Virus record (IMG/VR): IMGVR_UViG_3300022921_000002
Coordinates: 1 to 64,000 of that record
Direction: 5' to 3' (one strand)
Source of the DNA: a virus
Length of the DNA: 64,000 bases
Made by a program: the position numbers and the translations under genes. Shown here piece by piece: positions 24,044-54,673 of this stretch (positions are counted from its first letter, which is position 1; every line of letters starts with the position of its first letter). Below the pieces are notes generated by a model, which saw nothing but the letters and a program-made list of their open reading frames with translations, had not been told where the DNA came from and did no database searches.

Positions 24044-24370
24044 TTAAACCTCCGTGATTGTTGAGACGACAAATGCCAGTCCTTCAACAATTTTAGACAT
24101 CTCCCCGGTAGTCTTTTTCATTAAAACATCGTATTGGTATTTACCAGGCTTCAAAGTGCGGGTAACATCATCTGTTAAGACAAGTGTAATATCGTTATTA
24201 GCTTTTTCAATATCAAAATCCGCGACTGTTAAAGTCGAGTACATTTTCTTCATACTTGAATAAAAATCATAAGTCGCTATGCCAAGCTCAGCATTTTCAT
24301 CATCATAAAGATCAAAACTAATACGAAAGTCTGAACCTTGGTCAATGTATATGTTTGCTCTTGATGCCAT
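24044..24370 (-). CDS. Small beta-sandwich structural protein
   Basis: This 108-residue protein begins MASRANIYIDQGSDFRISFD and continues LYDDENAELGIATYDFYSSM, with later strands DITLVLTDDVTRTLKPGKYQ and YDVLMKKTTGEMSKIVEGLA. This pattern is familiar from small proteins next to tail-fibre genes of marine phages and looks like a single Ig-like or BppU_N-like domain. The ATG lies 30 nt after a perfect late box (24401-24408) and downstream of a terminator, so this is the first gene of a new transcript that also includes the 1455- and 807-residue fibres. Function is unknown; a fibre or baseplate adaptor is a reasonable inference. Confidence 0.72.
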   Translation of the reverse strand: MASRANIYIDQGSDFRISFDLYDDENAELGIATYDFYSSMKKMYSTLTVADFDIEKANNDITLVLTDDVTRTLKPGKYQYDVLMKKTTGEMSKIVEGLAFVVSTITEV

Positions 24371-24477: not shown

Positions 24478-27400
24478 TTATTGATTTAAATTATCAACTT
24501 CCTCTTTGAGATCTTTAATTGCTTCGATAAGTAATCCGACAATGTTACCGTAAGCAACGGCTTTCATTCCATCATCAGTTGTGTTAATAACTTCTGGCAA
24601 TATTTCTTCAACCTCTTGAGCAATAACACCTAGTTTTACGTTACCTAATTCAGCTTTTCTCTCATATGTAACACCACGCATACTTAACACTTTATTAAGC
24701 GCATCGGTAATAGTTTCAATATTAGTTTTTGTTCTTACATCAGATTGTGCGTTAATATCACCTGTTGATGTGAAGTTACCAGTTCCCATATCAAACGTAA
24801 ATCTCAATGTACCGTTATCTCTTATAGTATAATCAATACCGGTATCCATGTTTAATTGAACCTCGGCATCCGCAGATGCATATAAAAGTGCACCGCCAAT
24901 TGAGCTACCAAATGCAAGTTGAAGGTCATTTTGGAACCTTAATTCACCGCCTGTTTTTACATCGGACACCGAAGCTTCGAGGAAGTCACCTGATCCACCG
25001 TTAAGTGTACCTGTTACAACCAAGTTACCGTCAACATTCAAATTCTCAACAGTTAATTCGTCATCAGTACCTGTATAGAAGAAGTTTGATTCACCACCTG
25101 GGTTAGGTGATAGGGTTGCATATAATGGTTGTGCTCCACCACCTGCTTGTGTCATAGTAAGGAATAGTGGTGAACCTTGTAATGCTGTTCCATATAGATC
25201 GTTTGTTTCAATTGCTTGGGCATCTGCATCACCTTGAATACCTTGCATACCCTGAATACCATCTGCACCAATGATACCTTGTGGACCTTGCGGGCCTTGG
25301 TTACCTTGAATACCATCTTGCCCAACACCTTGAATACCTTGTGGACCCGCCCCACCTTGGAAACCTTGAACGCCTTGAACACCTTGGGTACCTGCACCTG
25401 TGAAGCCTTGTAGGCCATCATCACCAGGAGGACCTTGAACACCTTGTGGACCCTGAGTACCGCCACCACCGCTAAGACCTTGTGGACCTTGTGTGGACTG
25501 AATACCTTGCACACCTTGAATACCTTGAGAACCGCCTCCGCCGCCCTCACCTTGAACACCCGGTCCACCTTGAATACCTTGAATACCTTGGTTGCCTTCA
25601 CCACCAGGACCTTGAATACCATCGTCACCGATAGTACCTTGAGTACCTTGAAGACCGCCTTGACCTTCTTCACCCGAGGTCCCCTGAAGACCTTGAACAC
25701 CTTGAGGACCTTGTGTACCATCAGCACCTTGTCCATCTACACCTTGAACACCTTGTGTACCTTGGATACCAAATCCTTGAATACCCTGCGTACCTTGGAT
25801 ACCTTGCGCTCCATCATTACCTAATGAACCTTGAGCACCGATACCTTGTGGTCCTTGCGTACCCTGAATACCTGTTCCTGTTTCACCTTGAGCACCAGTA
25901 AATCCTTGTGTACCTTGAATACCTTGAGCACCAAATCCTGCGGGACCTACCTCACCTTGAACACCTTGGTCACCTTGTAAGCCTTGGGCGCCTTGTGTAC
26001 CTTGCGAACCTGCTGAACCAACACCGCCTGCACCTTGGAAACCTTGGAAACCAAGATCACCTTGGAAACCTTGTGTGCCCTGTAAACCTTGAACACCCTG
26101 GAAACCGTCACCACCTGTAGCACCGTCTTGGCCTGTAGTACCTTGCGGACCTTGTGGGCCTTGAATACCTTGGTTGCCATCACCTGCAGTACCTTGAGCG
26201 CCTTCTTCACCAGCATCACCTTGTAGGCCTTGAGGTCCTTGCGTACCTTGTAGACCTACGCCGCCTTCATCACCTTGAACACCTTGAGTTCCTTGTGGGC
26301 CTTGAATACCTTGTAAACCTGTGTCACCTTTATCACCTGTTCTTGCAAACGTAATTCTAACATCAGAATTATTTCCAAATGATGTAACGGAACCTGTTAA
26401 GAAAGTACAGTCATATTCAAAAAAGCCTGATCTTTCAATAACATCATTGATTCTAAATGCAACATAGTTACTTGTTGTTGTACCATCAATAACCCTAAAG
26501 AAACCTTTTATAGTACTTGTTGGTTCATCTGTTGTTCTTAAGAATGCTTGAACATCGGTAAACGAGTCATCTCGGTCGTCAATACGCATTTCAGTTGCAG
26601 AAGCAATGTTTGCCGCATTGAATTTAAGTAAACCAACACCTGGATCTGAAGTATCCGTTGCGGTACTAAATGTATAATCAAGAGTCATACCACCAAATTC
26701 ACCGGCAGGACCTAAGTCACCTTGAATACCTGTTGTACCTTGGATAGATTGTGGACCTTGTGTACCTTGGTTACCTAAATCACCTTGAGTACCTTGCCAA
26801 CCTTGTGTACCTTGCCAGCCTTGAGTACCTTGTGGACCTTGAACTCCTTGTAATCCTTGCGGACCTTGGACACCTTGGTCACCTTGTAATCCTTGAGTAC
26901 CTTGCGGACCAACTTCAGATGTAAAGATATTCCCAACCATTCCTGAGTGAATAGAACATTGATAAACTAAAGTAGCGGGAGCATTAAACGGCACCCTGAA
27001 TATCAATCTACCAGTTTCATCATTACCGACAATTGTTATGCCGTTAGTGTAATCTGAACCACCTGCACTTGTTCTAATTTTAAATGGGTGACCTGATACA
27101 TTCAAATCAAATGTATAAGTAAATCCTCTCAACAGATGTAGGTTAGGCTGTGTTACACCGTCTATTTCATATGAAGTAGAACCTGTGTTTGTTACAACAA
27201 ATTCTCTGCCGCCTTCCATACCTTGAACACCTTGGTAACCTTGGAAACCTTGTGTTCCTTGATCTCCCTGGAAACCCTGAGTACCTTGTGCTCCTTGGAA
27301 GCCTTGAGTACCTTGTGAGCCTTCATCACCTTGAATACCAGTAAATCCTTGGAAACCCTGAGTACCTTGCCAACCTTGTGTTCCTTGGAAACCCTGAGTA

Positions 27401-29217
27401 CCTTGCCAACCTTGCGTTCCTTGAGTACCTTGGAAACCTTCATCACCTTGAATACCTGTTGTACCTTGGAAACCCTGAGTACCCTGATTACCTTTATCAC
27501 CATATGGGATAAAATCAATAATTGCAGTAGCACCATATGATGCTACCGCACCTGTATTCCAACTTGTACCTGGTGAAACATCAGTTCCGCCCAAAGTACT
27601 TCGGTCAACATAGGTAATATCAAAGTGTCCCCAGTCAGTTGGACCTGAATCCCAAGTCCAATTTGTGAAGTTATAAATTAGGAATTCGTAATTACCGTTT
27701 CCTACATTCTTTGGTGTTCTAATAAAGATTGAACCTTTTGGAGAACTTGTAAGTGTATCAAGGAAATCAAACAATCCATCTACTCGGCGACCTGTATGTG
27801 TGAGGTCATCAATATACAACTTATCAGCTTGAGTAACATCAGCGTTATTAAGTAACCAACCGTTTAATCCCGGGAAACCTTCAGTTGTTGACGAATTAAA
27901 ATCCCACTCAAATGTCAGACCACCACTATAACCGATTTCACCTTGGAAACCTTGGAAGCCTTGAACACCTTGGTAACCTTGTGTACCCTGTAATCCTTGC
28001 GGACCTTGAACACCTTGGAAACCTTGAACACCGTCGTTTCCTTGAATACCTGTTGTACCTTGGAAACCTTGAACACCTTGGTCACCTGATTGGTCAAGGG
28101 CAACAACCAATGGATATGATGTTGTTATACCTGGAGTTGGAAAATCGGCAGTTTGCCAATTTGCTCGAGTAGCAGGACCGCCGATATATGTAACATCCAA
28201 TTCAAAATAATTAAATGGATCTGTACCTTTTTCAGTAATTTCTTGTACTGAGAATATAAGATAATATGCTGGTTCGTCACGTTTAGTTATTTTGATATAT
28301 GCTTTATTTGCCGATGTTGATAAATCAATTGCACGGAAATAGTCAACCAAATCTACATTATAAGTATCGTCTCTATTAAACCATAGTTTGGTAGCACTTG
28401 CAATAACTGTGTTGTTTGTATTAAATGACCCACCTGTTGGATTTTGATCTGTTACTTCTGTACCGAGTGTATAGTCAATGACCATTCCTGAGTCGGTACC
28501 ATTCCAACCTTGTGTACCTTGAAAACCTAAGTCACCTTGGATACCTGTTGTACCTTGGATCGACTGCGGACCTTGAACGCCTTGTGGACCCTGAACTCCT
28601 TGTAACCCTTGCGGACCTTGAACGCCTTGGTCACCTTGCAATCCTTGTGGTCCTTGAACACCTTGCAATCCTTGGACGCCTTGTGTGCCTTGATAACCTT
28701 GTGTACCTTGGAAACCACGATAACCGCGTGAGCCTTGAATACCTTCTTGTCCTTGGTCGCCTTGTAAACCTTGGTCACCTTGAACACCTTGGAAACCTTG
28801 AACACCACGGAATGATCCAATGTTAACCCAATTCGTTCCATCCCAAATCCAGAGTTCATCATCTGCTTCATCAATTACACCTTCGCCGATATTTGGTGTT
28901 GGGAATGCTGCAGTAAGTGTTGCTTGTGGATCACCGCCTGAATCTACATCAGCAACCGATCCTAAGATTGTAAACCCCGGACCGTAATCACCTTGTAGGC
29001 CTTGGTCACCTTGAATACCAGTAAATCCTTGAGTACCTTGTGGTCCTGTACCCATATCTTGCCATACAGTACCATTTGAATACTTCATTGTGCCGTTGTC
29101 GGCATATACAATAGATCCTTCAAACGGAGCTGGATCCAACCCTATCGGAAATGCTTGTGGAATACCATGACCGAGGGTAACGGTCCTAGCTCGCATTGAC
29201 TTGAACCTAGTCGACAT
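24478..29217 (-). CDS. Collagen-like tail fibre with cupredoxin-like domain and S74 chaperone
   Basis: This 1579-residue protein is built from blocks of Gly-X-Y repeats in which Y is most often Gln (GTQGFQG, GLQGVQG): about residues 57-80, 135-242, 375-432, 570-675, 770-840 and 960-1330. Between them lie three related domains of about 110 residues (near 240-375, 433-570 and 840-955) and one cupredoxin-like domain (about 676-768) with HPFKIRTSAGG and YQCSIHSGMVG, giving candidate copper ligands His710, Cys754, His757 and Met760. The C-terminus is an S74 chaperone: QSDVRTKTNIETI with predicted Ser1492 and Lys1497, then GVIAQEVEEILPEVIN and VAYGNIVGLLIEA. The protein should form a long trimeric triple-helical shaft. 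Its ATG overlaps the end of the upstream gene by 11 bp; an intrinsic terminator follows its stop. Confidence 0.88.
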   Translation of the reverse strand: MSTRFKSMRARTVTLGHGIPQAFPIGLDPAPFEGSIVYADNGTMKYSNGTVWQDMGTGPQGTQGFTGIQGDQGLQGDYGPGFTILGSVADVDSGGDPQATLTAAFPTPNIGEGVIDEADDELWIWDGTNWVNIGSFRGVQGFQGVQGDQGLQGDQGQEGIQGSRGYRGFQGTQGYQGTQGVQGLQGVQGPQGLQGDQGVQGPQGLQGVQGPQGVQGPQSIQGTTGIQGDLGFQGTQGWNGTDSGMVIDYTLGTEVTDQNPTGGSFNTNNTVIASATKLWFNRDDTYNVDLVDYFRAIDLSTSANKAYIKITKRDEPAYYLIFSVQEITEKGTDPFNYFELDVTYIGGPATRANWQTADFPTPGITTSYPLVVALDQSGDQGVQGFQGTTGIQGNDGVQGFQGVQGPQGLQGTQGYQGVQGFQGFQGEIGYSGGLTFEWDFNSSTTEGFPGLNGWLLNNADVTQADKLYIDDLTHTGRRVDGLFDFLDTLTSSPKGSIFIRTPKNVGNGNYEFLIYNFTNWTWDSGPTDWGHFDITYVDRSTLGGTDVSPGTSWNTGAVASYGATAIIDFIPYGDKGNQGTQGFQGTTGIQGDEGFQGTQGTQGWQGTQGFQGTQGWQGTQGFQGFTGIQGDEGSQGTQGFQGAQGTQGFQGDQGTQGFQGYQGVQGMEGGREFVVTNTGSTSYEIDGVTQPNLHLLRGFTYTFDLNVSGHPFKIRTSAGGSDYTNGITIVGNDETGRLIFRVPFNAPATLVYQCSIHSGMVGNIFTSEVGPQGTQGLQGDQGVQGPQGLQGVQGPQGTQGWQGTQGWQGTQGDLGNQGTQGPQSIQGTTGIQGDLGPAGEFGGMTLDYTFSTATDTSDPGVGLLKFNAANIASATEMRIDDRDDSFTDVQAFLRTTDEPTSTIKGFFRVIDGTTTSNYVAFRINDVIERSGFFEYDCTFLTGSVTSFGNNSDVRITFARTGDKGDTGLQGIQGPQGTQGVQGDEGGVGLQGTQGPQGLQGDAGEEGAQGTAGDGNQGIQGPQGPQGTTGQDGATGGDGFQGVQGLQGTQGFQGDLGFQGFQGAGGVGSAGSQGTQGAQGLQGDQGVQGEVGPAGFGAQGIQGTQGFTGAQGETGTGIQGTQGPQGIGAQGSLGNDGAQGIQGTQGIQGFGIQGTQGVQGVDGQGADGTQGPQGVQGLQGTSGEEGQGGLQGTQGTIGDDGIQGPGGEGNQGIQGIQGGPGVQGEGGGGGSQGIQGVQGIQSTQGPQGLSGGGGTQGPQGVQGPPGDDGLQGFTGAGTQGVQGVQGFQGGAGPQGIQGVGQDGIQGNQGPQGPQGIIGADGIQGMQGIQGDADAQAIETNDLYGTALQGSPLFLTMTQAGGGAQPLYATLSPNPGGESNFFYTGTDDELTVENLNVDGNLVVTGTLNGGSGDFLEASVSDVKTGGELRFQNDLQLAFGSSIGGALLYASADAEVQLNMDTGIDYTIRDNGTLRFTFDMGTGNFTSTGDINAQSDVRTKTNIETITDALNKVLSMRGVTYERKAELGNVKLGVIAQEVEEILPEVINTTDDGMKAVAYGNIVGLLIEAIKDLKEEVDNLNQ
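25228..26338 (-). repeat. Longest collagen-like Gly-X-Gln repeat block
   Basis: About 370 residues of uninterrupted Gly-X-Y triplets are encoded by imperfect 9-bp units seen on the plus strand as CCTTGNNNN. Shorter blocks of the same kind lie near 26697-26912, 27217-27509, 27931-28095, 28495-28816 and 28980-29050. The third-position variation between units shows they are old repeats, not a recent expansion. Confidence 0.9.
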
Positions 29218-29674: not shown

Positions 29675-32600
29675 TTATACTACAGCGCGGCTGTTAGATG
29701 CTCGTCTTGCAAGTTTACGAACCGATGATGTAAACGGCCGGCCTTCAATTCGACCTGTTCTACCGTTAATTCTTAATCCTCTTGCAAAGTATTGGTTGTT
29801 AAGTTCGTCTGCACCTGACCAACGAACCCTACCGCCATCTTCTGAAAGTACAGATGCAATAGCAGAGATCGGCAAGCCGAGGTTTCTAAAGTTAATTGGG
29901 AGCGCATTTCTGTTAACACCTGCCGAAGCACCGTTAAACTGGTGAGCAATTGATTCAACAAGTGAACCAAAGGTCAATACACTCGGTCTTAGGACAGACG
30001 CACGAAGAACATCGTCAAACAAACCATCAATCATTGCATCGTGGTCTATATCTGGTGTGTAATTCGTTTTAATAAATGTTTTCATTCTTGTCCATGCCTG
30101 ATAGAATGATACAAGTAGATCCACGTTATTAGCTCCATCTGTTTGCCATGCTGTTCCGTCCCAATAGTAAATAGTACCGTCATACCTATTTCCGGCATAA
30201 TCCGTTGATACTATATATGCGTGATTTGGTTTTTGTCCAGTGACATTACTCAATGCGCCCAATCCGTTCAGTGTACCTTGGAAACTTAATCCTGGTGTTG
30301 TTGGATTGAATACTGGGAACACGTGCTTACCATTGTAATCGAAGAATGCTGCTGCATATGTTCTTGTGGATGTTTGACTTCCATCTTGACCTGTAACGAT
30401 ATTTTGGAATTTAAAGTCATTTGCCACTGATTGCAACAAGTTACCTGCGTCACGGCGAGTCAAGTTAATATCAAAGAATTTATAATTCTGTCCAACAAAT
30501 CTTACAGTCTCAACAGACAATTTCTTTCTGTTGGCAATAAGGATTTCTCGAGCAAATTTAAACACTTTATTATCTTCCCAGTCAAAGTCAGGTAGGATTG
30601 TTGGTCCAAAGTCTTTTTCATCTTTGTTCAGGAACGAGCGATAATAGATATCGGCAAGGTCATAAACGTGTTGTGCTTCAACTGCTGTTGTTGACTCACC
30701 TTTAATAGAAACACCTGGTAGTGTTTCAAGAAGTGCGTCACGAGCAATCTCACCTAATTTACGGTATGCTTTTGCAGTTGGCACACGTTGATCTTCTGGG
30801 ATACGATATACGTTGTTCCAAAAGTAGAATGCCGCATTCCATTTAGAAGCAGATGTTCCGCCGTAGTTCAGGTCATATGCAAATGCGTCAACAAGATATC
30901 CTGCATCTCGGCGACACTTAACTTTGTTATAATCCAATACATTATAAGTAGTATTTATCCAATTTGTTACATCGTCTGCGAGGATATCCAAATTATCATC
31001 AATTTCTTTACCCGCCCAAACAAGGCTGTTATCAATCCATGAAGTATCAGGTTCAATAATTTCAGGAATACCATCAATGCTATCACGGCGGATTGCATCT
31101 TCAATAATACGGATCATATCGGCAACATATTCACCTTCAACCGCAGTTGCTGGTGCACCTGATATATCTTGTGCTTGTCTTGTAACAATTGCTTTTCTGA
31201 TTGCACCTTCTGTTGCTGATACAAATGTATGAGCTTTATCAACACCTGCCGGTCCGGCATTCATTGTAATTGTGGTACCGTCAACAAATTCAACTCTACA
31301 TGGTTTACCATCTGCCCATTCATCACCGCCAACACGTGGGTGAGAAATCTCAATCGGTGTAGGATCAACATCTGATGTTGGGCAAGAGAATGTAATGCCC
31401 AAGTTATCAAATGTTACAAAGTCACCTGCTTCAATGTTATGAGAACCGATTGTTGCTGTCATCATACCAGTAAGTGGATCATAAACTACATTTGTTGGAG
31501 TGTAACCGTAATTGGTTGGTGTTTGCTCCTGAACAACTGCTGATACCACATCTGCCATTACAGTATATAGATCTGCGGTTTGCTGACGTTGGTCATATGG
31601 CAGTACGCTTGTTGCGTTTCTAAAGTAGAACTGTGCAGATTGCACCGATGCAAAGTTGGTTGAGTAGTTAACGTCATGTGATATAGCATCTACAAGGATA
31701 CCAATGTCACGGCGACATTTCTGTTTCGGATAACTGATACCATTCCAATTGTTTGTGATATAATTAATAACCGATGTTGCAAGAGCAGGAATTGAATCTT
31801 CAATTGCTTCTTTTGCTGTGATAAGATCAGATTGGATCCAATTTGTAAATGGTGGCACCTCTAATGGAATACCTTTTTCATCATTATCATCTGCAATATT
31901 TGCAACAATCCATGCCAAGTTTTTAGCTTCAGTTGCAATTGTTCTTCTTGCTGCAAGATGAGATGTATCTTGTTTGATAAGGTTTCCTGTTACTTGTGAA
32001 ACCGCATTTGGTAATGCTGATACGAATGTATGAGCACCGCCTGCAGCAGGACCAACATTAACAGTAATAGTTGTTGATGATGTTGCAAGTACAGGAATTG
32101 CACGGAGGTATGCAGGATGGTGCGGTTGTGGCGCTGCGTGGTTTGTTGTGTTTCCATCCATGTCACAAGTAAATGTCATACCATCTTCAGTTAGCATAAC
32201 ATGGTCATTAGTTGTTAACTCATGCTGACCAATTGTGATTACAATTTCACCAGTTACGTTATCGTATACTGCAGTTGTTGGTGTATATTTTGCACCAAAT
32301 TCAACAGGTACCAATTCATTTCTGGTTACGTGCTCAACAATTTCACCGAGTCGAGTAAATGCCATTCTTGTTGCATCACGTTGATCTGTTGGTAATAGGT
32401 TAACTGCATTTTTGAAATACAATCCTGCGGCATTTACCATTGCTGAATTACCACCGTATTGAATATCGTGGCAAATCGCATCAATGATATAACCTGTATC
32501 ACGGAAACAACGGTCACGGTCATACTCGAGGTAGTTGAATGTTGTTTTTAGATAATCAGTAATTGTTGATTGTAATGCGTCTTTTCTTGAACCAATCAAT

Positions 32601-35600
32601 GCTGCTTCGGTTTCATAATCGTAAGATGCAGCACCAACTGCTCCTGCGAATACTTCAATATCATCTGGCATATCAACCAATGAGTCGGCAGCAATTACAG
32701 TTGCAATAATTTCCCAAAGATCTTGCATATCATTTCCGATTGCCGCAGCAACAGGACCGAATACTTTATTTTGGATTACAGTGTTACCTGCTGATGGTGT
32801 AACATCAATCTTAAGGATTAAGTCACGAGAAACATCACCGAGGTGTGTATATAATGCGGCAGTAGGTGCACGTTGATCTGCGGACAATGTTGATAGTCCG
32901 TTTTCAAAGTACAATTTAGCAACATCAAGCATAGCGGTGTTAGTTACGTGCTGAATGTCATATGATGCCGCATCAGCCATGATGCCAGTATCTCTTTCAC
33001 ATTTAGCAGTATCGTATGACAATGATGGGTAATTAGCTGCAACCCATGCTGTTGCTTCAGCCTGCAAGAATGCGCGGTTCAATTGTAATGCTTGTCTTGC
33101 GTTTATATTATTTGACCCACGGTTTCCTGTACCGTAATCATAGTTTGTACCGTCAGGTGTGTAATCGTTTACCATTGCGGTAATAATATTACTGAAGGAA
33201 TTCTGAGCTCTTGTTAATGCCACACCGGTCAATCTTGACTCAATGTCTTTTTGTATATATTGAATTCCTTCAATTGTTTCGGCAAGTTGGTCTTCAATAA
33301 CCTTATCAGCTCCTACAGTACCAATGCGGTACGATTTGCCTACGTACTTACCATTATAGTTTGAACCTGTTTGAACATCTCTTCTAACTGCGTCAAGGAT
33401 AAATCCTGCATCACGAGCACATTTGTTTTCATCAAATGTATAGAATTCGTCATCAATATAATTAACGATTTCATTTTGAATAAACTCACGGTTCATGGCA
33501 AGTGATTGTCTTGCGTATGTTCTTGATGGTTCCATCAATGGTTTTGATGTAACCGCAGGTATTTTGATAGGTGAGAAATCATCAACTGTTTGTGCGATAA
33601 TTTCAACAAGATCGTGGGCACGAGAACCAGTTGCAACATCCGCCGCTGGGATAGATGTTGTATCTTGTACTCTTACATTACCTGTTGTCGCTGTTACAGT
33701 GATAGCACGAGAAACTTCATCAATAACATCAGCAAGGTGTTGATATGCTAATCTTGTCGGTCCTCTTTGCTCAGGTGGTAATGTATTAACTGCACCAAGG
33801 AAGTAATAATTTGCAGAATGTACTGTCGCGGCATCTCCGCCGTATTCCAAATCTTCGGTGATTGCGTCAACAATGTAACCAATATCACGGTAACATTTAG
33901 CTTCGTTATATGCAAGACCTGAATATGTCACAGCAATCAAATCAATGATTTCTGTTTGATATTTTGGTTTTGATCCACCAATTAATCTTGCTTCTGATAT
34001 GATTGTTGTGCCGTATGCCGATGTTGGTTTTGGCTCAATAACTGTAGGAACAGTGCCATCGTTATTTCTGATTGTTTGGCCTACACCGTCAAACAGATTA
34101 ACTACTGAACTTGATACCGTCGGTGCAAGTGATCTTCTAATACCGTTTGCTGTTGCTGATACGAAAGTATGTACCTTATCAACCTTAGCGTCACCGACCT
34201 GCATTGTAATTGTTGTTGAAGTTACAGCATCAATTCTAACTGGTTTGTTAAAGATTGGATCAGTTGGGCGTGGGTGTGAGATATTAATTGGCGTAGGATC
34301 AGTTGGTGATGTTGGGCAAGATAGTGTGATTGCATTCTCATCAAAGATAACATAATCGCCAACACTAAATCTATGTCTATCACCAAGAGTAACTTCCATT
34401 ACACCTGTCATATGAGCATATGCAACATCAGTTGCGGTATATGCCTCGGCAACATTTGCTCGGCGGATACAATCAGCATCAGCAGATACGAATGTGTGAG
34501 CACCTGTGTAGCCATTTGCAGACCCGGCATTTACAGTAATTGTAGTTGCATCAGCAGCAGTAATGATAAATTGTTTACGTAAGTTAGGATCCGCGGCATT
34601 TGGATGTGAGTCTGTTCCACCACCGCCAAATCCACAACTGAATGTGATTGATTCAGGATCAATTGTAATTCTATCACCGATAACAAAATTATGAGTACCA
34701 ATTGTTGCTACCATGATACCAGTAACAGGATCATAAGTTGCAGTCGTTGGTGTGTAAGTATCTTCATCAGTTTTAACTTGTGTAACAACACTTTGAAGAT
34801 TATCAACTTCTTCACCACGAACAATTTGACCTGCAATTTTAGCAATGTGGTCATATACTTCTGATGTTGGTACAATTTCATCATCTGCCAAAACAGGTAA
34901 TGCATTTTCAAAATACAGTCTTGAATTATTTACAGTTGATGCAGTTGAACCGTGTTGAACATCCCAAGAAACAGTATCAACAAAGATACCAAGGTCACGC
35001 TCACAAGCAACAGTATCATAAACAAATCCAGGATGGTTTGCTGTGATCCATGCAATTGCTTCTTTTTGGATGAATGATTTATTAAGTTGTAGGATATGGC
35101 GTGCTGCAAATGCATCTTCTGATATTGATTGAATACCAAAGTCGATTGCATCAGCTGCGGCATTACCGTTTGACATAATATCAATGATTTCATCAAATGC
35201 TGCGTCAGAGCGAGCAATTGCTGTTGCATCAGTTAATACGTCAGTGTTAATTTTACCTTTGAGCCATGTGATAGCACCAACAGTTTCTGTTAATTGGTTA
35301 TTAACAACATTGTTAGCACCTACAGTACCGATGCGATAACCCAGACCTGTGTAAACTGCATTATTGTTTGAACCTGTCAAAACGTCACGCATTACAGCGT
35401 TAAGGATATATCCTGTGTCACGCATACATTTTTCTTTATCATAGATGAAGTAATTATCATTCAACCATGCAGTAATTTCTTCTTGAATAAAGGTTTTGTT
35501 TTTCTGCAATTGTCTTGCGGCATACTTACCTTTTTCAGATGAGCTTACTTTAATAATTGAACCTTCTTCAGCAGATACGAATGTGTGAGCACCTGTATAA

Positions 35601-38600
35601 CCACCTGCTGAGCCTGCATTGAATGTAATTGTAGTTGCATCCGCTGCGGTTACTTCTTGTGGGTGTTCGTACATCGGCTCACCGATACGTGGGTGATAGT
35701 CTGTTCCACCGCCATTAAATCCACAACTAAATGCGAAACTCAACGGTTTTGTTTGAACATTATCGCCTACTTCAATATCGTGTCCCGGGATTGTTACAAC
35801 CATGTCACCTGTGTTAGGATCATATGTTGCGTTGGTTGGTGTGTAAGCTTTAACAAATTTTGCTGGGTCAGTAAAGTACAATGCGTGCCCATCAATACAA
35901 TCTTTTGTTGCCGATACGAATGTGTGCGTATTAGCATGCCCGTTAGCATTACCAACATTAACAGTAAATGTTGTTGAAGTTGTTTCTGTAATTCTTACAG
36001 GTTGATTATATGCTGGGTGACCTGGTAATGGTGCAGGATCTGTTCCTACAACACCGCCAACATCACAACTGAATACGATTGACTCGGGAGCAATTGAAAT
36101 CCATTGTCCTACAGGCAAATCATGCTGACCAATTGTTACAACCATTTCACCGTTTACAGGATCGTATGTTACATCTTGTGGTGTATATTTTCCTGTCCAC
36201 ATGCCATCTTCACGAATAGCATTTGTTGTTGCTGATACAAATGTATGAGCAGAAGTATCTTGTGATTTACCAACATTAACTGTGATAGTTGTTGCGGTTC
36301 TTGCGCTGATTTCAACAGGGTTTTCGTATGCAGGATGCTGACGTTCTGTTGTCAAACCATCAGCCAATGCTGATACGAATGTATGTACTCCGCCGCCATC
36401 TGTAACTGCACCAACATTCATTTTCAAAACAAAACCGTTAACTTCATCAATTGTTACAGGCTTATTAAAGAATGGGTGATGTGACTCAGGTGCGGCATGC
36501 TCAGTTACGTTATCATCAAGCTCACAAGTGAATGTGATAGCACCTGGTTTAAATGTTACGGTATCACCTGCTTTTAATTGGTTAGCAGAAATTGTAACCG
36601 TGAACTCACCAGTTGATGGAACGTATGTTGCGGTTGATGGTGTCCATGTTTCAAATGTTGTTGATGGATACGCATGCTGTGAAGTGTTTCCATCAAGAGC
36701 ACAGGTAAATACCATGCTGTTCTTTTCAATACGGATCTTATCACCTACGGCAAAATCGTGAGCACCGATTGTAATTTCAACTACACCGGTTACAGGATTA
36801 TATGCTGCGTCGGTTGGTGTATATTTTTTACCGTTGTTATTCAACAATGCAACCATTTGGTCAAACGATGTGTTAACTCTATCAACTGCAAGTGTATTAC
36901 CTGTTACTGTGTTTGCAGTTTCAGATTTCATATGGTTGATTGAAGCAACAGTTTGCTCAAGTTGTTTTGTAACACTTACTTCACCTGATTTGGAACGGTA
37001 AGCAATACCTGTTTGGTATGCGTTAAAGTTTGTACCTAACAACAAATCTCTTTGAACGGCAGGCATGATATATTCTTTAGTATCTCTTTCACACTTTTTG
37101 CTGTCATAGAAATACCATTGATTTTCTGCCCATCCTTCCATGTAATCCTGGATGAATTCTTTGTTTGCTTGCAATTGCTTACGAGCATTACGTTTATCAG
37201 CAGGGATACCAGCATCATCAGAGAATGTTAATGCTTCACCTAATACGGATACAGATGATGGTTTTGCCGATACGAATGTATGAGCAAAGTTAGCACCTGT
37301 TGTGCCTGCATTGATTGTAATAGTCTTTGCCGAAACTTCATCAATTGGTATAGCACGGCGGTAGTTAAATGTATCACTCTTACGTGGGTGAGAGATTTCT
37401 AACTTGTTGCCATCACTATCACAAGTGAATGTAAATGCTTCATCAGCAATTGTTACGAACTGACCTTTTTGCAAAGTATGGGCACCGATTGTGATAACCA
37501 TTCTTCCTGTATCAGGTTCGTATGTTGCTTTTGTTGGGTTGAATTTTTGAGTTCTTGTGTTATCAAGAATATCAATAATTGTGCTCATTCTATCGTATGA
37601 TCTTTCTGCCATGATTGCAGAGTTTGCTTCGACAAGATCATCGGTAATTTTGCGTAATCTTTCAAATGATCCAACAGTTTCTTCACGTTGATTTTCAACA
37701 ACTGTTTGACCTTGTTTAGAATAATATGCCTGTCCTGCAACTACTGAGTTGTAGTTTGTATCAAGCATTGAGTCCCACTTAACAGCAGGTAGAATATATT
37801 CTTGAATATCACGGCGGCATTTAGCACTATCGTATGAGAAGAATTCGTCATTGTTATCAATCCATTCAACCATTCCATCAATAATAAGTTCACGGTTGTC
37901 TTGGATGATTTCACGAGCAGCTGTTCTTGCAACATTACCTGTATCTGTAAAGAATAGGTCAGATGCATATGACTCGCCATTCTCAAGAATATTTAATGTC
38001 TCATCAAGGGAAACGTTGGCACGAGTATTAACTGCTGCTTCTGAATTGCTAAACAATCTGTTAATTTCTGATTTCAAATGTTCGTTGGCACCAAGAGTTT
38101 CAGTCAACTGCTCGTTTTTAACAACATATGAAATTGGGCTTGAATAAGCAATACCGTTTAGTCGACCCCAATAGTTTGTATTGAGTGCAACGTCATACCC
38201 AACACTATCAATGATAATTCCTGTGTCTCGTTTACATTTTTCAGCATCATAACCTTGATAACCCAAACCACCTTGTGATACTGGTGTTGTCAAATAACCA
38301 ACCATATCTTCAATAATGTCTTGCTTGTTATCCATAAGGGTATCGGCAAATACAGTGTTAGAGAACAGAATTGCTTCATCGGTTGATGATGGTGTAAACA
38401 CTTCAGTTGAGCCTTTAGCTCTCATTGAAATGTCACCAAACTGAGTACCTGAGTTGTTCAAGGTCATTTGACCGCCGTTTAGTGCATAGAATGCTGTACG
38501 AACGAAGATTGACAATGAACCAATACCGTTAACACCTGCACCGTCTCGTGCCACATAACCCATACCGTTTTGAGTACGAGGTGTAAAACCAAAACAAAGA

Positions 38601-40675
38601 ACATATGTAAACAATGAGTCAGGATCGAGTACACGACGGTCCGCGAGCATACACCCACCACCGCGACCAACAAGTCTGTTCGGGAAGTCATCAATACCAA
38701 CTGATGCAACTTGACCTGTACCACCACTTTCAGAATACAGCATATCACCTGGTTCAACATTACCAACAAGGTTTCTTACATAAATTGCTGAGTCAGACGT
38801 AACACTTGTTGTCCAGGATACGTAACCTGATGCACCTGATGAGAAAGTGATATAATCACCTTCGGCAAATAATGATTCAATTGAGTGACCTGGTTGCATA
38901 AAGAATTCTTGACCAAGGTCGGCAATTGTACCTTTTGAGTTGAATGGGTTAAGAGGTGGTTCGACATCCAAACGGTTAAAGTTTGACAACTGAGAACTAT
39001 CTCGAATATATGGTGAACGTCTTAGCAACGCACCTGGGCGATATGCAACTGCAAATCCTCCTTCAGGATAATCAAAGTTATCAACTTCAAAGTTCATATA
39101 TGCAAAACCTTGAACATAACAACCTGATCCAACAAGAACACCGTTAGTTCTTTCAAATCCTGGTTTCTTTTGAATAACTGTTGCATACTGACCGGCTGTT
39201 GAAGTCATAGAACAATCGTCAGGTAATTCAATTGGGTCATCTACATAATAAGTACCTGGACCTACTGAAATATGAACTGCTTCGTTTAATGCGTTTCTGT
39301 TATAAACACCGCCTGCTTTTTCAACTGCAAGTTCCGCACCGCGTTTTAGTGTTTGAACAGGTCTAAGAATTGTACCTGGGTTGTTGTCATCGCCATCAAC
39401 GGCAACGTGTACTTTAAGAGCTTTTTCTGTTGATTTAGAAATTTCGTCAAAGAATTGGCGATAGCTGATCTGTTGTGTTTCATTTGTTTTAACATTTTTA
39501 ATGGCGAAGTAGTTATCTTCATCCATGTTTGGTTGCCACACTTTGTGTAGTTCCATGTCAAAGTCAACAAGTGTTGAGCTATCAATTGTTGTGTTTGAAA
39601 CTTCTGAGTCCTGAATAGAACCATCAATAAATGATGATTTATCAGAGATTGCCATTCCTTTTGTTTCGGAACTTGTGATGGTCATATTTGACGCTGTCAC
39701 ATTATCCATAACACCTTGGAACGATGAATTAGTAATTACGTTATTATCAAGAGTACCATCTTGAATTGTTGTATCGGTAAATACATTATTGGATCCTGTT
39801 CCGTCACTGAAATCAGAGTCAGTAATATTTACTGAATTAATGAACCCGCCTGTTATGGAGGATGAAGTCATCGTAACATTGTTGGCAGTTGAATCTATAA
39901 TCCGACCTTGTAGAATAGTACTAGTAAATACGTTATTATTACCAGTGCCATCACTGAAATCAGTGTTTAGGATTGTTGAGTTAGCAATTGCTGTATCCCA
40001 AATTTGGCCGTTTGAAAATCTTGAGTTTGTAATATCAACATCATCAAGATCAACATTGAAGATAGAACTGTTAGAGATAGTACCTTCAGAAAAATCAGTT
40101 GTAACGATTGATGAGTTAGAAATCGTAGCATCTTCAAGAATAAGTTCGTCGATACTAATGTTTGTAAGGATCAGGCCATTTGCAGTACCTTGGTCAATAG
40201 TAACATTATTATATTCGGAATTGTCAATACGAGAATTCGTAAAGACCATATTGTTACCTTGGCCGTCATTGAATGTTGAATTGTCAATTGTTGAATAAGT
40301 AAATACATCGTTGTTACCTGTGCCATCACTGAAATCAGAGTTCAGGATAGTTGAGGCATTCATCGAGATATTGTTTGCGGTTGCAGTCAGAATGGTGACA
40401 TTAGATATCACGGTCTGTTGCATTGTTCCGCGGTTTATTGCCGAGTCATTAATTTGTGTAGTATTAATAACTGAGTCGGACATTGTAACACCGGAGATTG
40501 TACCTCCAGTGATTGTAATTCTATCAAAGATTTCATATTGTATAGCTTGAACTAATTCAGCTCTAGTTAGGTTCTTTGTACCGTCATCACCTTGGATAAG
40601 GTTAACTATAACAAAGAGGTCTTCGGTGCGTGTATTTGCACCGGTTATAGGACCTAGTTCTGTAATCTTTGACAT
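29675..40675 (-). CDS. Giant 3666-residue virion protein: pentapeptide-like and pectate-lyase-like beta-helices plus long alternating repeat array
   Basis: Residues about 50-370 are rich in N/D-x-S/T-x-F/V repeats such as STILNTDFSDGTGNNNVFT, suggesting a pentapeptide-like beta-helix. From about 420 (KVHVAVDGDDNNPGTILRPV) to about 700 is a pectate-lyase-superfamily right-handed beta-helix. Residues about 817-3410 alternate two modules: a helical one seen 12 times, with Y-D/N-x-x-K-C-x-R-D-x-G-x-I-x-D-A (one copy lacks the Cys), and a beta one seen nine times, with T-I-T-V-N-V-G and HTFVSA. The C-terminal 80 residues (LSEDGGRVRWSGADELNNQY, FARGLRINGRTGRIEGRPFT) are conserved in marine T4-like phages. 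A perfect late box lies 25 nt upstream. I infer a large fibre or tailspike-like virion protein, possibly with polysaccharide-binding or degrading activity; no catalytic residues can be assigned. Confidence 0.85.
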   Translation of the reverse strand: MSKITELGPITGANTRTEDLFVIVNLIQGDDGTKNLTRAELVQAIQYEIFDRITITGGTISGVTMSDSVINTTQINDSAINRGTMQQTVISNVTILTATANNISMNASTILNSDFSDGTGNNDVFTYSTIDNSTFNDGQGNNMVFTNSRIDNSEYNNVTIDQGTANGLILTNISIDELILEDATISNSSIVTTDFSEGTISNSSIFNVDLDDVDITNSRFSNGQIWDTAIANSTILNTDFSDGTGNNNVFTSTILQGRIIDSTANNVTMTSSSITGGFINSVNITDSDFSDGTGSNNVFTDTTIQDGTLDNNVITNSSFQGVMDNVTASNMTITSSETKGMAISDKSSFIDGSIQDSEVSNTTIDSSTLVDFDMELHKVWQPNMDEDNYFAIKNVKTNETQQISYRQFFDEISKSTEKALKVHVAVDGDDNNPGTILRPVQTLKRGAELAVEKAGGVYNRNALNEAVHISVGPGTYYVDDPIELPDDCSMTSTAGQYATVIQKKPGFERTNGVLVGSGCYVQGFAYMNFEVDNFDYPEGGFAVAYRPGALLRRSPYIRDSSQLSNFNRLDVEPPLNPFNSKGTIADLGQEFFMQPGHSIESLFAEGDYITFSSGASGYVSWTTSVTSDSAIYVRNLVGNVEPGDMLYSESGGTGQVASVGIDDFPNRLVGRGGGCMLADRRVLDPDSLFTYVLCFGFTPRTQNGMGYVARDGAGVNGIGSLSIFVRTAFYALNGGQMTLNNSGTQFGDISMRAKGSTEVFTPSSTDEAILFSNTVFADTLMDNKQDIIEDMVGYLTTPVSQGGLGYQGYDAEKCKRDTGIIIDSVGYDVALNTNYWGRLNGIAYSSPISYVVKNEQLTETLGANEHLKSEINRLFSNSEAAVNTRANVSLDETLNILENGESYASDLFFTDTGNVARTAAREIIQDNRELIIDGMVEWIDNNDEFFSYDSAKCRRDIQEYILPAVKWDSMLDTNYNSVVAGQAYYSKQGQTVVENQREETVGSFERLRKITDDLVEANSAIMAERSYDRMSTIIDILDNTRTQKFNPTKATYEPDTGRMVITIGAHTLQKGQFVTIADEAFTFTCDSDGNKLEISHPRKSDTFNYRRAIPIDEVSAKTITINAGTTGANFAHTFVSAKPSSVSVLGEALTFSDDAGIPADKRNARKQLQANKEFIQDYMEGWAENQWYFYDSKKCERDTKEYIMPAVQRDLLLGTNFNAYQTGIAYRSKSGEVSVTKQLEQTVASINHMKSETANTVTGNTLAVDRVNTSFDQMVALLNNNGKKYTPTDAAYNPVTGVVEITIGAHDFAVGDKIRIEKNSMVFTCALDGNTSQHAYPSTTFETWTPSTATYVPSTGEFTVTISANQLKAGDTVTFKPGAITFTCELDDNVTEHAAPESHHPFFNKPVTIDEVNGFVLKMNVGAVTDGGGVHTFVSALADGLTTERQHPAYENPVEISARTATTITVNVGKSQDTSAHTFVSATTNAIREDGMWTGKYTPQDVTYDPVNGEMVVTIGQHDLPVGQWISIAPESIVFSCDVGGVVGTDPAPLPGHPAYNQPVRITETTSTTFTVNVGNANGHANTHTFVSATKDCIDGHALYFTDPAKFVKAYTPTNATYDPNTGDMVVTIPGHDIEVGDNVQTKPLSFAFSCGFNGGGTDYHPRIGEPMYEHPQEVTAADATTITFNAGSAGGYTGAHTFVSAEEGSIIKVSSSEKGKYAARQLQKNKTFIQEEITAWLNDNYFIYDKEKCMRDTGYILNAVMRDVLTGSNNNAVYTGLGYRIGTVGANNVVNNQLTETVGAITWLKGKINTDVLTDATAIARSDAAFDEIIDIMSNGNAAADAIDFGIQSISEDAFAARHILQLNKSFIQKEAIAWITANHPGFVYDTVACERDLGIFVDTVSWDVQHGSTASTVNNSRLYFENALPVLADDEIVPTSEVYDHIAKIAGQIVRGEEVDNLQSVVTQVKTDEDTYTPTTATYDPVTGIMVATIGTHNFVIGDRITIDPESITFSCGFGGGGTDSHPNAADPNLRKQFIITAADATTITVNAGSANGYTGAHTFVSADADCIRRANVAEAYTATDVAYAHMTGVMEVTLGDRHRFSVGDYVIFDENAITLSCPTSPTDPTPINISHPRPTDPIFNKPVRIDAVTSTTITMQVGDAKVDKVHTFVSATANGIRRSLAPTVSSSVVNLFDGVGQTIRNNDGTVPTVIEPKPTSAYGTTIISEARLIGGSKPKYQTEIIDLIAVTYSGLAYNEAKCYRDIGYIVDAITEDLEYGGDAATVHSANYYFLGAVNTLPPEQRGPTRLAYQHLADVIDEVSRAITVTATTGNVRVQDTTSIPAADVATGSRAHDLVEIIAQTVDDFSPIKIPAVTSKPLMEPSRTYARQSLAMNREFIQNEIVNYIDDEFYTFDENKCARDAGFILDAVRRDVQTGSNYNGKYVGKSYRIGTVGADKVIEDQLAETIEGIQYIQKDIESRLTGVALTRAQNSFSNIITAMVNDYTPDGTNYDYGTGNRGSNNINARQALQLNRAFLQAEATAWVAANYPSLSYDTAKCERDTGIMADAASYDIQHVTNTAMLDVAKLYFENGLSTLSADQRAPTAALYTHLGDVSRDLILKIDVTPSAGNTVIQNKVFGPVAAAIGNDMQDLWEIIATVIAADSLVDMPDDIEVFAGAVGAASYDYETEAALIGSRKDALQSTITDYLKTTFNYLEYDRDRCFRDTGYIIDAICHDIQYGGNSAMVNAAGLYFKNAVNLLPTDQRDATRMAFTRLGEIVEHVTRNELVPVEFGAKYTPTTAVYDNVTGEIVITIGQHELTTNDHVMLTEDGMTFTCDMDGNTTNHAAPQPHHPAYLRAIPVLATSSTTITVNVGPAAGGAHTFVSALPNAVSQVTGNLIKQDTSHLAARRTIATEAKNLAWIVANIADDNDEKGIPLEVPPFTNWIQSDLITAKEAIEDSIPALATSVINYITNNWNGISYPKQKCRRDIGILVDAISHDVNYSTNFASVQSAQFYFRNATSVLPYDQRQQTADLYTVMADVVSAVVQEQTPTNYGYTPTNVVYDPLTGMMTATIGSHNIEAGDFVTFDNLGITFSCPTSDVDPTPIEISHPRVGGDEWADGKPCRVEFVDGTTITMNAGPAGVDKAHTFVSATEGAIRKAIVTRQAQDISGAPATAVEGEYVADMIRIIEDAIRRDSIDGIPEIIEPDTSWIDNSLVWAGKEIDDNLDILADDVTNWINTTYNVLDYNKVKCRRDAGYLVDAFAYDLNYGGTSASKWNAAFYFWNNVYRIPEDQRVPTAKAYRKLGEIARDALLETLPGVSIKGESTTAVEAQHVYDLADIYYRSFLNKDEKDFGPTILPDFDWEDNKVFKFAREILIANRKKLSVETVRFVGQNYKFFDINLTRRDAGNLLQSVANDFKFQNIVTGQDGSQTSTRTYAAAFFDYNGKHVFPVFNPTTPGLSFQGTLNGLGALSNVTGQKPNHAYIVSTDYAGNRYDGTIYYWDGTAWQTDGANNVDLLVSFYQAWTRMKTFIKTNYTPDIDHDAMIDGLFDDVLRASVLRPSVLTFGSLVESIAHQFNGASAGVNRNALPINFRNLGLPISAIASVLSEDGGRVRWSGADELNNQYFARGLRINGRTGRIEGRPFTSSVRKLARRASNSRAVV
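30430..38260 (-). repeat. Alternating CxRD and HTFVSA protein repeats in the giant virion protein
   Basis: Twelve copies of the K-C-x-R-D module and nine of the HTFVSA module are spread over this region. At DNA level the HTFVSA copies often share the plus-strand string GATACGAATGTATGAGC or close forms, for example near 37265, 36370, 35575, 34480 and 32020, which shows common ancestry. Confidence 0.88.
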
Positions 40676-53743: not shown

Positions 53744-54673
53744 TTAACTCTCCAATTGAAGAACAGTTAATGTAACTGCGACATTTTCAGTACCACCTGA
53801 TTTGTTTGTAACCGTGGCATAGATATCTGTACCTGTTGAACAATAACCAATAACTGCAGGGCCAAAATCTACTTTCTGTCCCGAGGTTGTAATTACCTCG
53901 GCAATAACCCCAGCATCTGGTGCAGGATCGGTATTGATAGTTCTAGTTGAATCTGATGAACGCGCAGTCGTGTCGATATATAATCTAACCCATGCCGCGT
54001 GAGATGTTTCAATTGAGTATAATGCATAGCCTTTAAATCCACTTATAGTTAAATTTGCTGTTGCTTCATCTGCAAGTGATGATGCCGTTGCAGCTTTTGT
54101 TGTTCTTGTTTGTAGTGAACTACCGCCACCACCAAGATCTTCAGCATTTGCGAGTTCAACCCACGCACCGGCATGAGCATAGTATGCTGCGCCTGTACCG
54201 TGTACGTGAGCAAACATACCGTGGTATGAACTTGCATTTGGTAAATCATTTACCGCATCATAGACGTTACCAAATAATACTTTGTTCCCGCCCATATCCA
54301 AATCAGCACCAACGACCGCGGCAATTGCATCAGAGTCAGTATAAGTTGAACCGCCACCACCTGTTTGGTTAACGAATGTAAATGTTCCGTTTCCATCCGT
54401 GGAAAGTACTTGGTTTGCTGTTCCGTCGGTAATACCTAAACTCAAAAGTCCCAATGTTTGGAACGTGAAATTTGCACCACCGTTTGTTGTTAATACTTGG
54501 CCGTTTGTTCCGTCAGTAATACCCAACCCTGTTAATGATGTTGGGACAACAATATCATCCAGTCCATCATATAACTCAGTAAAGTTGCTATTAGTTTTTT
54601 GGAACGCGGTCCTTAAAATATCACCTGTTCCGTCATTGGCGCTTGCGCCGACGCCGATAATTTGCTTGACCAT
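53744..54673 (-). CDS. Small tail fibre / virion protein, 309 residues
   Basis: The N-terminus MVKQIIGVGASANDGTGDIL with RTAFQKTNSNFTELYDGLDD is a well-known opening of marine phage structural proteins. It is followed by two short repeats (GITDGTNGQVLTTNGGANFT and GITDGTANQVLSTDGNGTFT) of a fibre type, then a segment with VYDAVNDLPNASSYHGMFAH and AAYYAHAGAWVELAN, typical of fibre proteins, and a C-terminal beta domain (TIS.GFKGYALYSIETSHAA, ending VAVTLTVLQLES). A late-promoter variant (GATAAATA, 54697-54704) lies 23 nt ahead of the ATG. It sits where T4 keeps gp9, which anchors long fibres, so a fibre or fibre-socket role is plausible. Confidence 0.75.
   Translation of the reverse strand: MVKQIIGVGASANDGTGDILRTAFQKTNSNFTELYDGLDDIVVPTSLTGLGITDGTNGQVLTTNGGANFTFQTLGLLSLGITDGTANQVLSTDGNGTFTFVNQTGGGGSTYTDSDAIAAVVGADLDMGGNKVLFGNVYDAVNDLPNASSYHGMFAHVHGTGAAYYAHAGAWVELANAEDLGGGGSSLQTRTTKAATASSLADEATANLTISGFKGYALYSIETSHAAWVRLYIDTTARSSDSTRTINTDPAPDAGVIAEVITTSGQKVDFGPAVIGYCSTGTDIYATVTNKSGGTENVAVTLTVLQLES

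Follow-up and report, generated by a model that had tools for sequence, protein, structure and literature searches.

A predicted cupredoxin domain with a putative blue-copper-style site inside a collagen-like phage tail fibre

A collagen-like tail fibre encoded in the 64,000-nucleotide stretch analysed here (positions 1 to 64,000 of IMG/VR record IMGVR_UViG_3300022921_000002, hereafter the window) contains a domain that is almost certainly a cupredoxin by its predicted fold. Its four conserved ligand residues probably form a real copper site. We lean slightly towards the view that the domain is a genuine cupredoxin on the virion exterior, with a putative type-1 (blue-copper) style site of amicyanin spacing, and that it might contribute to stiffening or adhesion there.

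The open reading frame which the preliminary description had placed at 24478-29217 is real; it runs on the minus strand, and its product has 1579 amino acids. The motifs HPFKIR and YQCSIHSGM, with the four proposed ligands, can be read in its translation at the claimed positions, and the domain is indeed flanked by two collagen blocks. The label "tail fibre" is sound, since the frame lies among T4-like genes for the baseplate, hub, and fibres. The features are as follows.

24478-29217, minus strand: collagen-like tail-fibre protein of 1579 residues (open reading frame; Pfam Collagen 1e-80 in 14 stretches; Peptidase_S74 1e-14; PHROG tail fibre families)
27205-27501, minus strand: collagen-like Gly-x-y block N-terminal of the cupredoxin domain, residues 573-671
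26911-27201, minus strand: predicted cupredoxin domain of about 95 residues, fibre residues about 673-769 (AlphaFold2; Foldseek; profile match to plastocyanin)
27088-27090, minus strand: His710, putative first copper ligand, at the start of HPFKIR; 94.5% weighted conservation
26956-26958, minus strand: Cys754, putative copper ligand in YQCSIHSGM, at a strand end in the model; 92% weighted conservation
26947-26949, minus strand: His757, putative copper ligand in YQCSIHSGM; 92% weighted conservation
26938-26940, minus strand: Met760, putative axial ligand in YQCSIHSGM, closing the C-x2-H-x2-M loop
26686-26910, minus strand: collagen-like Gly-x-y block C-terminal of the cupredoxin domain, residues 770-844, with a short break
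24589-24744, minus strand: Peptidase_S74 intramolecular chaperone at the end of the fibre, residues 1492-1543 (Pfam 1.1e-14)
24044-24370, minus strand: small gene downstream of the fibre, matching an L-shaped-tail-fibre assembly family (phrog_3304 8e-15, phrog_1084 2.5e-17)
53744-54673, minus strand: gp9-like baseplate wedge/tail-fibre connector of the same phage, without a cupredoxin (matches only positions 1-242 of the 412 in the phrog_677 profile, where the cupredoxin occupies 309-407)

The whole fibre contains only two cysteines (754 and 937) and only six histidines (17, 474, 531, 694, 710, and 757), none of which are spaced i, i+2, so that the HxH motif is absent from it. Three further non-collagen domains of 115-140 residues lie between collagen blocks at about residues 245-372, 433-571, and 844-959 and, judged by eye only, resemble diverged copies of one another. 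Elsewhere in the window, a 3666-residue virion protein (29675-40675, minus strand) bears many repeats matching phrog_701 and phrog_5342, with 11 stretches each.

The domain was modelled with AlphaFold2 from 44 related sequences, giving nine short strands with a pLDDT of 92.5 and a pTM of 0.86, in keeping with the Greek-key beta-sandwich of about eight strands that characterises the cupredoxin superfamily. When the model was searched against the PDB with Foldseek, every match at E<1e-3 (22 of 22) was a copper protein; these included rusticyanin, AcoP, the cupredoxin domain of copper nitrite reductase, plastocyanin (3cvb being counted as such), and multicopper oxidases, with moderate TM-scores (about 0.5-0.63 when scaled to query length). 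Another model, built with an archaeal homologue as the lead sequence, agreed with the first, and lower in its list stood azurins with the short loops CTPHPFM and CAAHAAM, whose spacing is that of the fibre domain. These are chimeric azurins of solved structure with the C-x2-H-x2-M spacing, and the deposition of the CTPHPFM variant names it Cu(II)azurin. The models also arrange the residues as in a cupredoxin: the first His stands before a strand, the Cys is at the end of one, and the loop that follows holds the second His and the Met. The cupredoxin-like fold originally proposed from the sequence is therefore borne out by the prediction and by the structure search, plastocyanin included. Among BFVD structures, Pithovirus LCPAC and Marseillevirus LCMAC have beta-sandwich proteins that also resemble the domain.

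Homology to solved cupredoxins is also detectable at the sequence level. A profile built from 24 diverse domain members, restricted to those with C-x2-H (A2), matched plastocyanin among PDB chains with E=1.6e-4, followed by nitrite reductases and rusticyanins, and its His, Cys, His, and Met columns were aligned with the copper ligands of these PDB matches. The suggested profile search against cupredoxins thus picked up plastocyanin with the ligand residues in register. Comparison by hhalign with seven known or Pfam-recognised cupredoxins, among them amicyanin (identical in sequence to 1aac in a PDB search), scored 34.2, whereas none of 59 column shuffles exceeded 15.3 and reversing the alignment gave 11.2. 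Single-sequence searches with the window domain alone returned no cupredoxin match in Pfam, NCBIfam, or the PDB, and a profile in which one subgroup was dominant (A1) yielded mostly chance matches to antibodies in the PDB. The Pfam family PF00127 (Copper-bind) did not match the window domain and matched 3 of 44 members, with a best E of 0.028, short of the curated cut-off. Weak matches to PF25489 (At5g54830-like domain) were seen in 15 of the 44 members (best 4e-4), a hint of a eukaryotic relative.

The evidence for a metal site includes the conservation of its ligands. Of 50 clusters that share less than 62% identity, 48 retain all four residues, a count that leaves out copies gapped at the ligand columns, and in both exceptions the Cys and the second His were missing together. 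Among 176 distinct domains, C-x2-H followed by Met occurred in 165, the Met coming after two residues in 125 and after three in 40, and in two relatives the Met was replaced by Gln or Lys. Gln is present in some natural blue-copper sites, and we know of no natural blue-copper site with Lys as the axial residue. The ligand positions rank among the most conserved columns of the domain family; the invariant columns of A2 are F36, H43, C87, H90, and M93, where the invariance of C87 and H90 follows by construction because the rows were chosen for C-x2-H. Ligand-poor copies do occur: locus L061 has one intact copy and two further copies without ligands, and L232 and L250 each combine one degenerate and one intact copy within the same protein. 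In these copies, the Cys and the second His are lost jointly while the rest of the domain is still recognisable. The domain can thus do without the site but as a rule retains all of it, the pattern expected from selection for metal binding. Judged by sequence conservation, the ligand motif is not a chance occurrence, since all four residues recur in nearly all such divergent clusters. Conservation in homologues, on which the preliminary description had made its copper site depend, is thus found, with the residues aligned to the copper ligands of plastocyanin. The ligand order His, Cys, His, Met and the Cys-x2-His spacing that it had noted also stand, but the likeness of the loop to plastocyanin does not, because C-x2-H-x2-M is the spacing of amicyanin.

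Far from being confined to this fibre, the domain recurs on many ocean phages. The suggestion that similar domains may occur in other marine phage proteins proved right: we found the domain in 351 of 50,697 phage records, nearly all from Synechococcus or Prochlorococcus phages, with pelagiphages and other marine phages in addition, and a search of IMG/VR gave hundreds of relatives. The domain often makes up the C-terminal end of the gp9-like connector between baseplate wedge and tail fibre (PHROG 677), as in cyanophages S-ShM2 and P-TIM68, and in P-SSM2 it lies inside a collagen fibre. Several phages, P-SSM2 and P-HM1 included, have between two and four copies, most of which retain all ligands; in the 221 kb record of the window phage, no copy besides that in the fibre was found. 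Weak and apparently ligandless relatives were noticed inside giant wedge or structural proteins of S-SRM01 (L286), S-ShM2 (L275), and P-TIM68 (L276). There was no domain match in five phages from freshwater, soil, or ponds or in an estuarine cyanophage, and a reservoir cyanophage had a ligandless remnant only; a marine-only rule is not established by this comparison because the marine phages were picked for matching. The window phage itself appears to be T4-like, and its host is apparently not a cyanobacterium but perhaps an alphaproteobacterium. We weighed a cyanobacterial host and set it aside: no Photo_RC gene turned up, and the closest baseplate gene among named phages belongs to Sinorhizobium phages (40.8% identity), which is a hint of an alphaproteobacterial host and nothing more.

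For one homologue, there is direct evidence of a virion location. The protein S-SZBM1_206 ends in an intact domain (...YQCTIHSGMIGNIVVV) and was detected by mass spectrometry in CsCl-purified virions with nine peptides and 24.9% coverage of the protein as a whole (PMC9146016). A domain-bearing protein is therefore part of the virion in another phage. In the open-access literature searched, we came across no description of a cupredoxin domain on a phage fibre or virion, and the papers retrieved there on cyanophage virion structure and on Marine Group II cupredoxins had nothing on this domain. Cyanophage plastocyanin has been described as the metabolic gene petE (PMC2984593). Iron has been reported on fibres, at the HxH sites of T4 gp37 (as cited in PMC11705849) and of the fibre of Alteromonas phage R22Y (PMC11705849).

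Outside viruses, a scan of 84,980 cellular genomes keyed on one conserved peptide gave 16 loci; for 15 of these, the record title names Euryarchaeota, Poseidoniales, Thalassarchaeaceae, or Marine Group II. The complete archaeal proteins are collagen-like, carry a lipobox-like signal, and end in the cupredoxin. Two inspected loci had syntenic cellular surroundings, and each of six genomes searched had one copy of the lipoprotein. This conserved collagen-like lipoprotein (L137 4074-5333, L145 4326-5297, and other loci among L136-L151) ends in a cupredoxin domain that is unnamed in Pfam. One such lipoprotein has a second, small module in common with the fibre; in the window, this module lies between collagen blocks at 28807-28980 on the minus strand (residues 80-137, GPGFTILG...LWIWDGTNWVNIG; BLASTP 6e-6). 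In an unrooted tree based on few columns, the archaeal domains fall into a single clade that lies among viral sequences, with 96/99 support. The lipoprotein domain of L149 (NZKZ01000064.1), binned as Acidiferrobacter, is nearly identical to that of the archaeal L150, and the contig is probably a mis-binned archaeal one.

How might such a site work on a fibre? The collagen stalk would be a trimer, so that each fibre would carry three adjacent copper sites. The cytoplasm in which virion proteins fold holds little free copper; the fibre protein would fold there as the apo form and might take up copper at or after lysis of the host. The metal could then lock the His/Cys/Met loop and turn the domain into a stiffer bead. 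The exposed end of the site, on the second-His face, which is the docking side in known cupredoxins, might bind to the host surface. As the domain is internal in the fibre and not at its tip, a role in direct receptor contact is weakened. Electron transfer by the virion site is possible but less likely, as no redox partner is known on the virion.

Alternatively, the fold might serve purely as a spacer in the structure or as a bead for receptor binding, its ligand residues being inherited and the site empty or put to another use, for example through a buried Cys or hydrogen bonds. The ligandless yet recognisable copies in L061, L232, and L250, the weak matches in the giant wedge proteins of S-ShM2, P-TIM68, and S-SRM01, and the use of the domain as one movable bead among many spacer domains are what this account would predict. 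Idle ligands, however, should decay singly, whereas 48 of the 50 clusters keep all four, losses are joint, and the ligand columns are among the best conserved of the family; we consider an empty site unlikely. A His2Cys set is also able to bind zinc, and the site could hold zinc or iron for rigidity, as iron is held at the HxH sites of T4 gp37. Although metal-bearing phage fibres are thus known (T4 gp37, cited in PMC11705849), a metal other than copper appears very unlikely because a conserved Met as the fourth ligand typically marks a copper site, solved relatives with the same arrangement are copper proteins, and our fibre lacks the HxH motif.

A working redox or copper-capture device, exchanging electrons with carriers on the host surface or delivering copper to host copper receptors, would fit the Marine Group II collagen-like lipoproteins that end in the same domain, for which extracellular copper capture or electron transfer is plausible. 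In the phage, however, no partner redox gene adjoins the fibre and the neighbours are baseplate and fibre genes, which makes this function quite unlikely. We thus return to copper in a stiffening or adhesive bead as the preferred reading. With more doubt, we entertain the wider possibility that working blue-copper sites are common on the baseplates and fibres of marine tailed phages, that the module has been exchanged with Marine Group II surface lipoproteins, and that copper is needed for attachment or virion stability. Were such copper sites real, very abundant ocean phages would carry copper on their outside, copper would have to be added to iron, the metal considered until now, in accounts of the trace metals of viral particles, phage attachment would include a metal-dependent step, and phages and uncultured archaea would share an unnamed cupredoxin subfamily.

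Compared with known systems, the domain resembles the amicyanin and plastocyanin type-1 copper proteins (PF00127) in fold, in the H...C-x2-H order, and in the alignment of ligands by profile comparison. Its loop CSIHSGM has the same C-x2-H-x2-M spacing as CTPHPFM of amicyanin and differs from the C-x2-H-x4-M of plastocyanin. Those proteins are free electron carriers, and the amicyanin gene adjoins methylamine dehydrogenase, whereas our domain is embedded in a fibre among baseplate and fibre genes, with no methylamine dehydrogenase or photosynthetic partner nearby. The iron fibres of T4 gp37 and R22Y likewise bear metal ligands, putative in our case, on a tail fibre, but they differ in residues, architecture, and metal, using HxH motifs. 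In the cyanophage connector of PHROG 677, the homologous domain (E 3e-28) keeps all the ligands and stands at the C-terminal end, whereas the window fibre carries it as an internal bead and shares only that C-terminal part of the profile (309-407). A Marine Group II lipoprotein (L145 4326-5297) has the same domain, with 38% identity over 131 residues including collagen, and likewise combines it with a collagen stalk and the second common module; unlike the fibre, these lipoproteins are cellular and predicted to be lipid-anchored, carry the domain C-terminally, and adjoin nitroreductase-, ParA-, and EamA-like genes, as named by reading the sequences. The P-SSM2 fibre PSSM2_028 differs in its C-terminal part and has about 43% identity in the domain, but it shares with the window fibre the order collagen, cupredoxin, collagen and the full ligand set.
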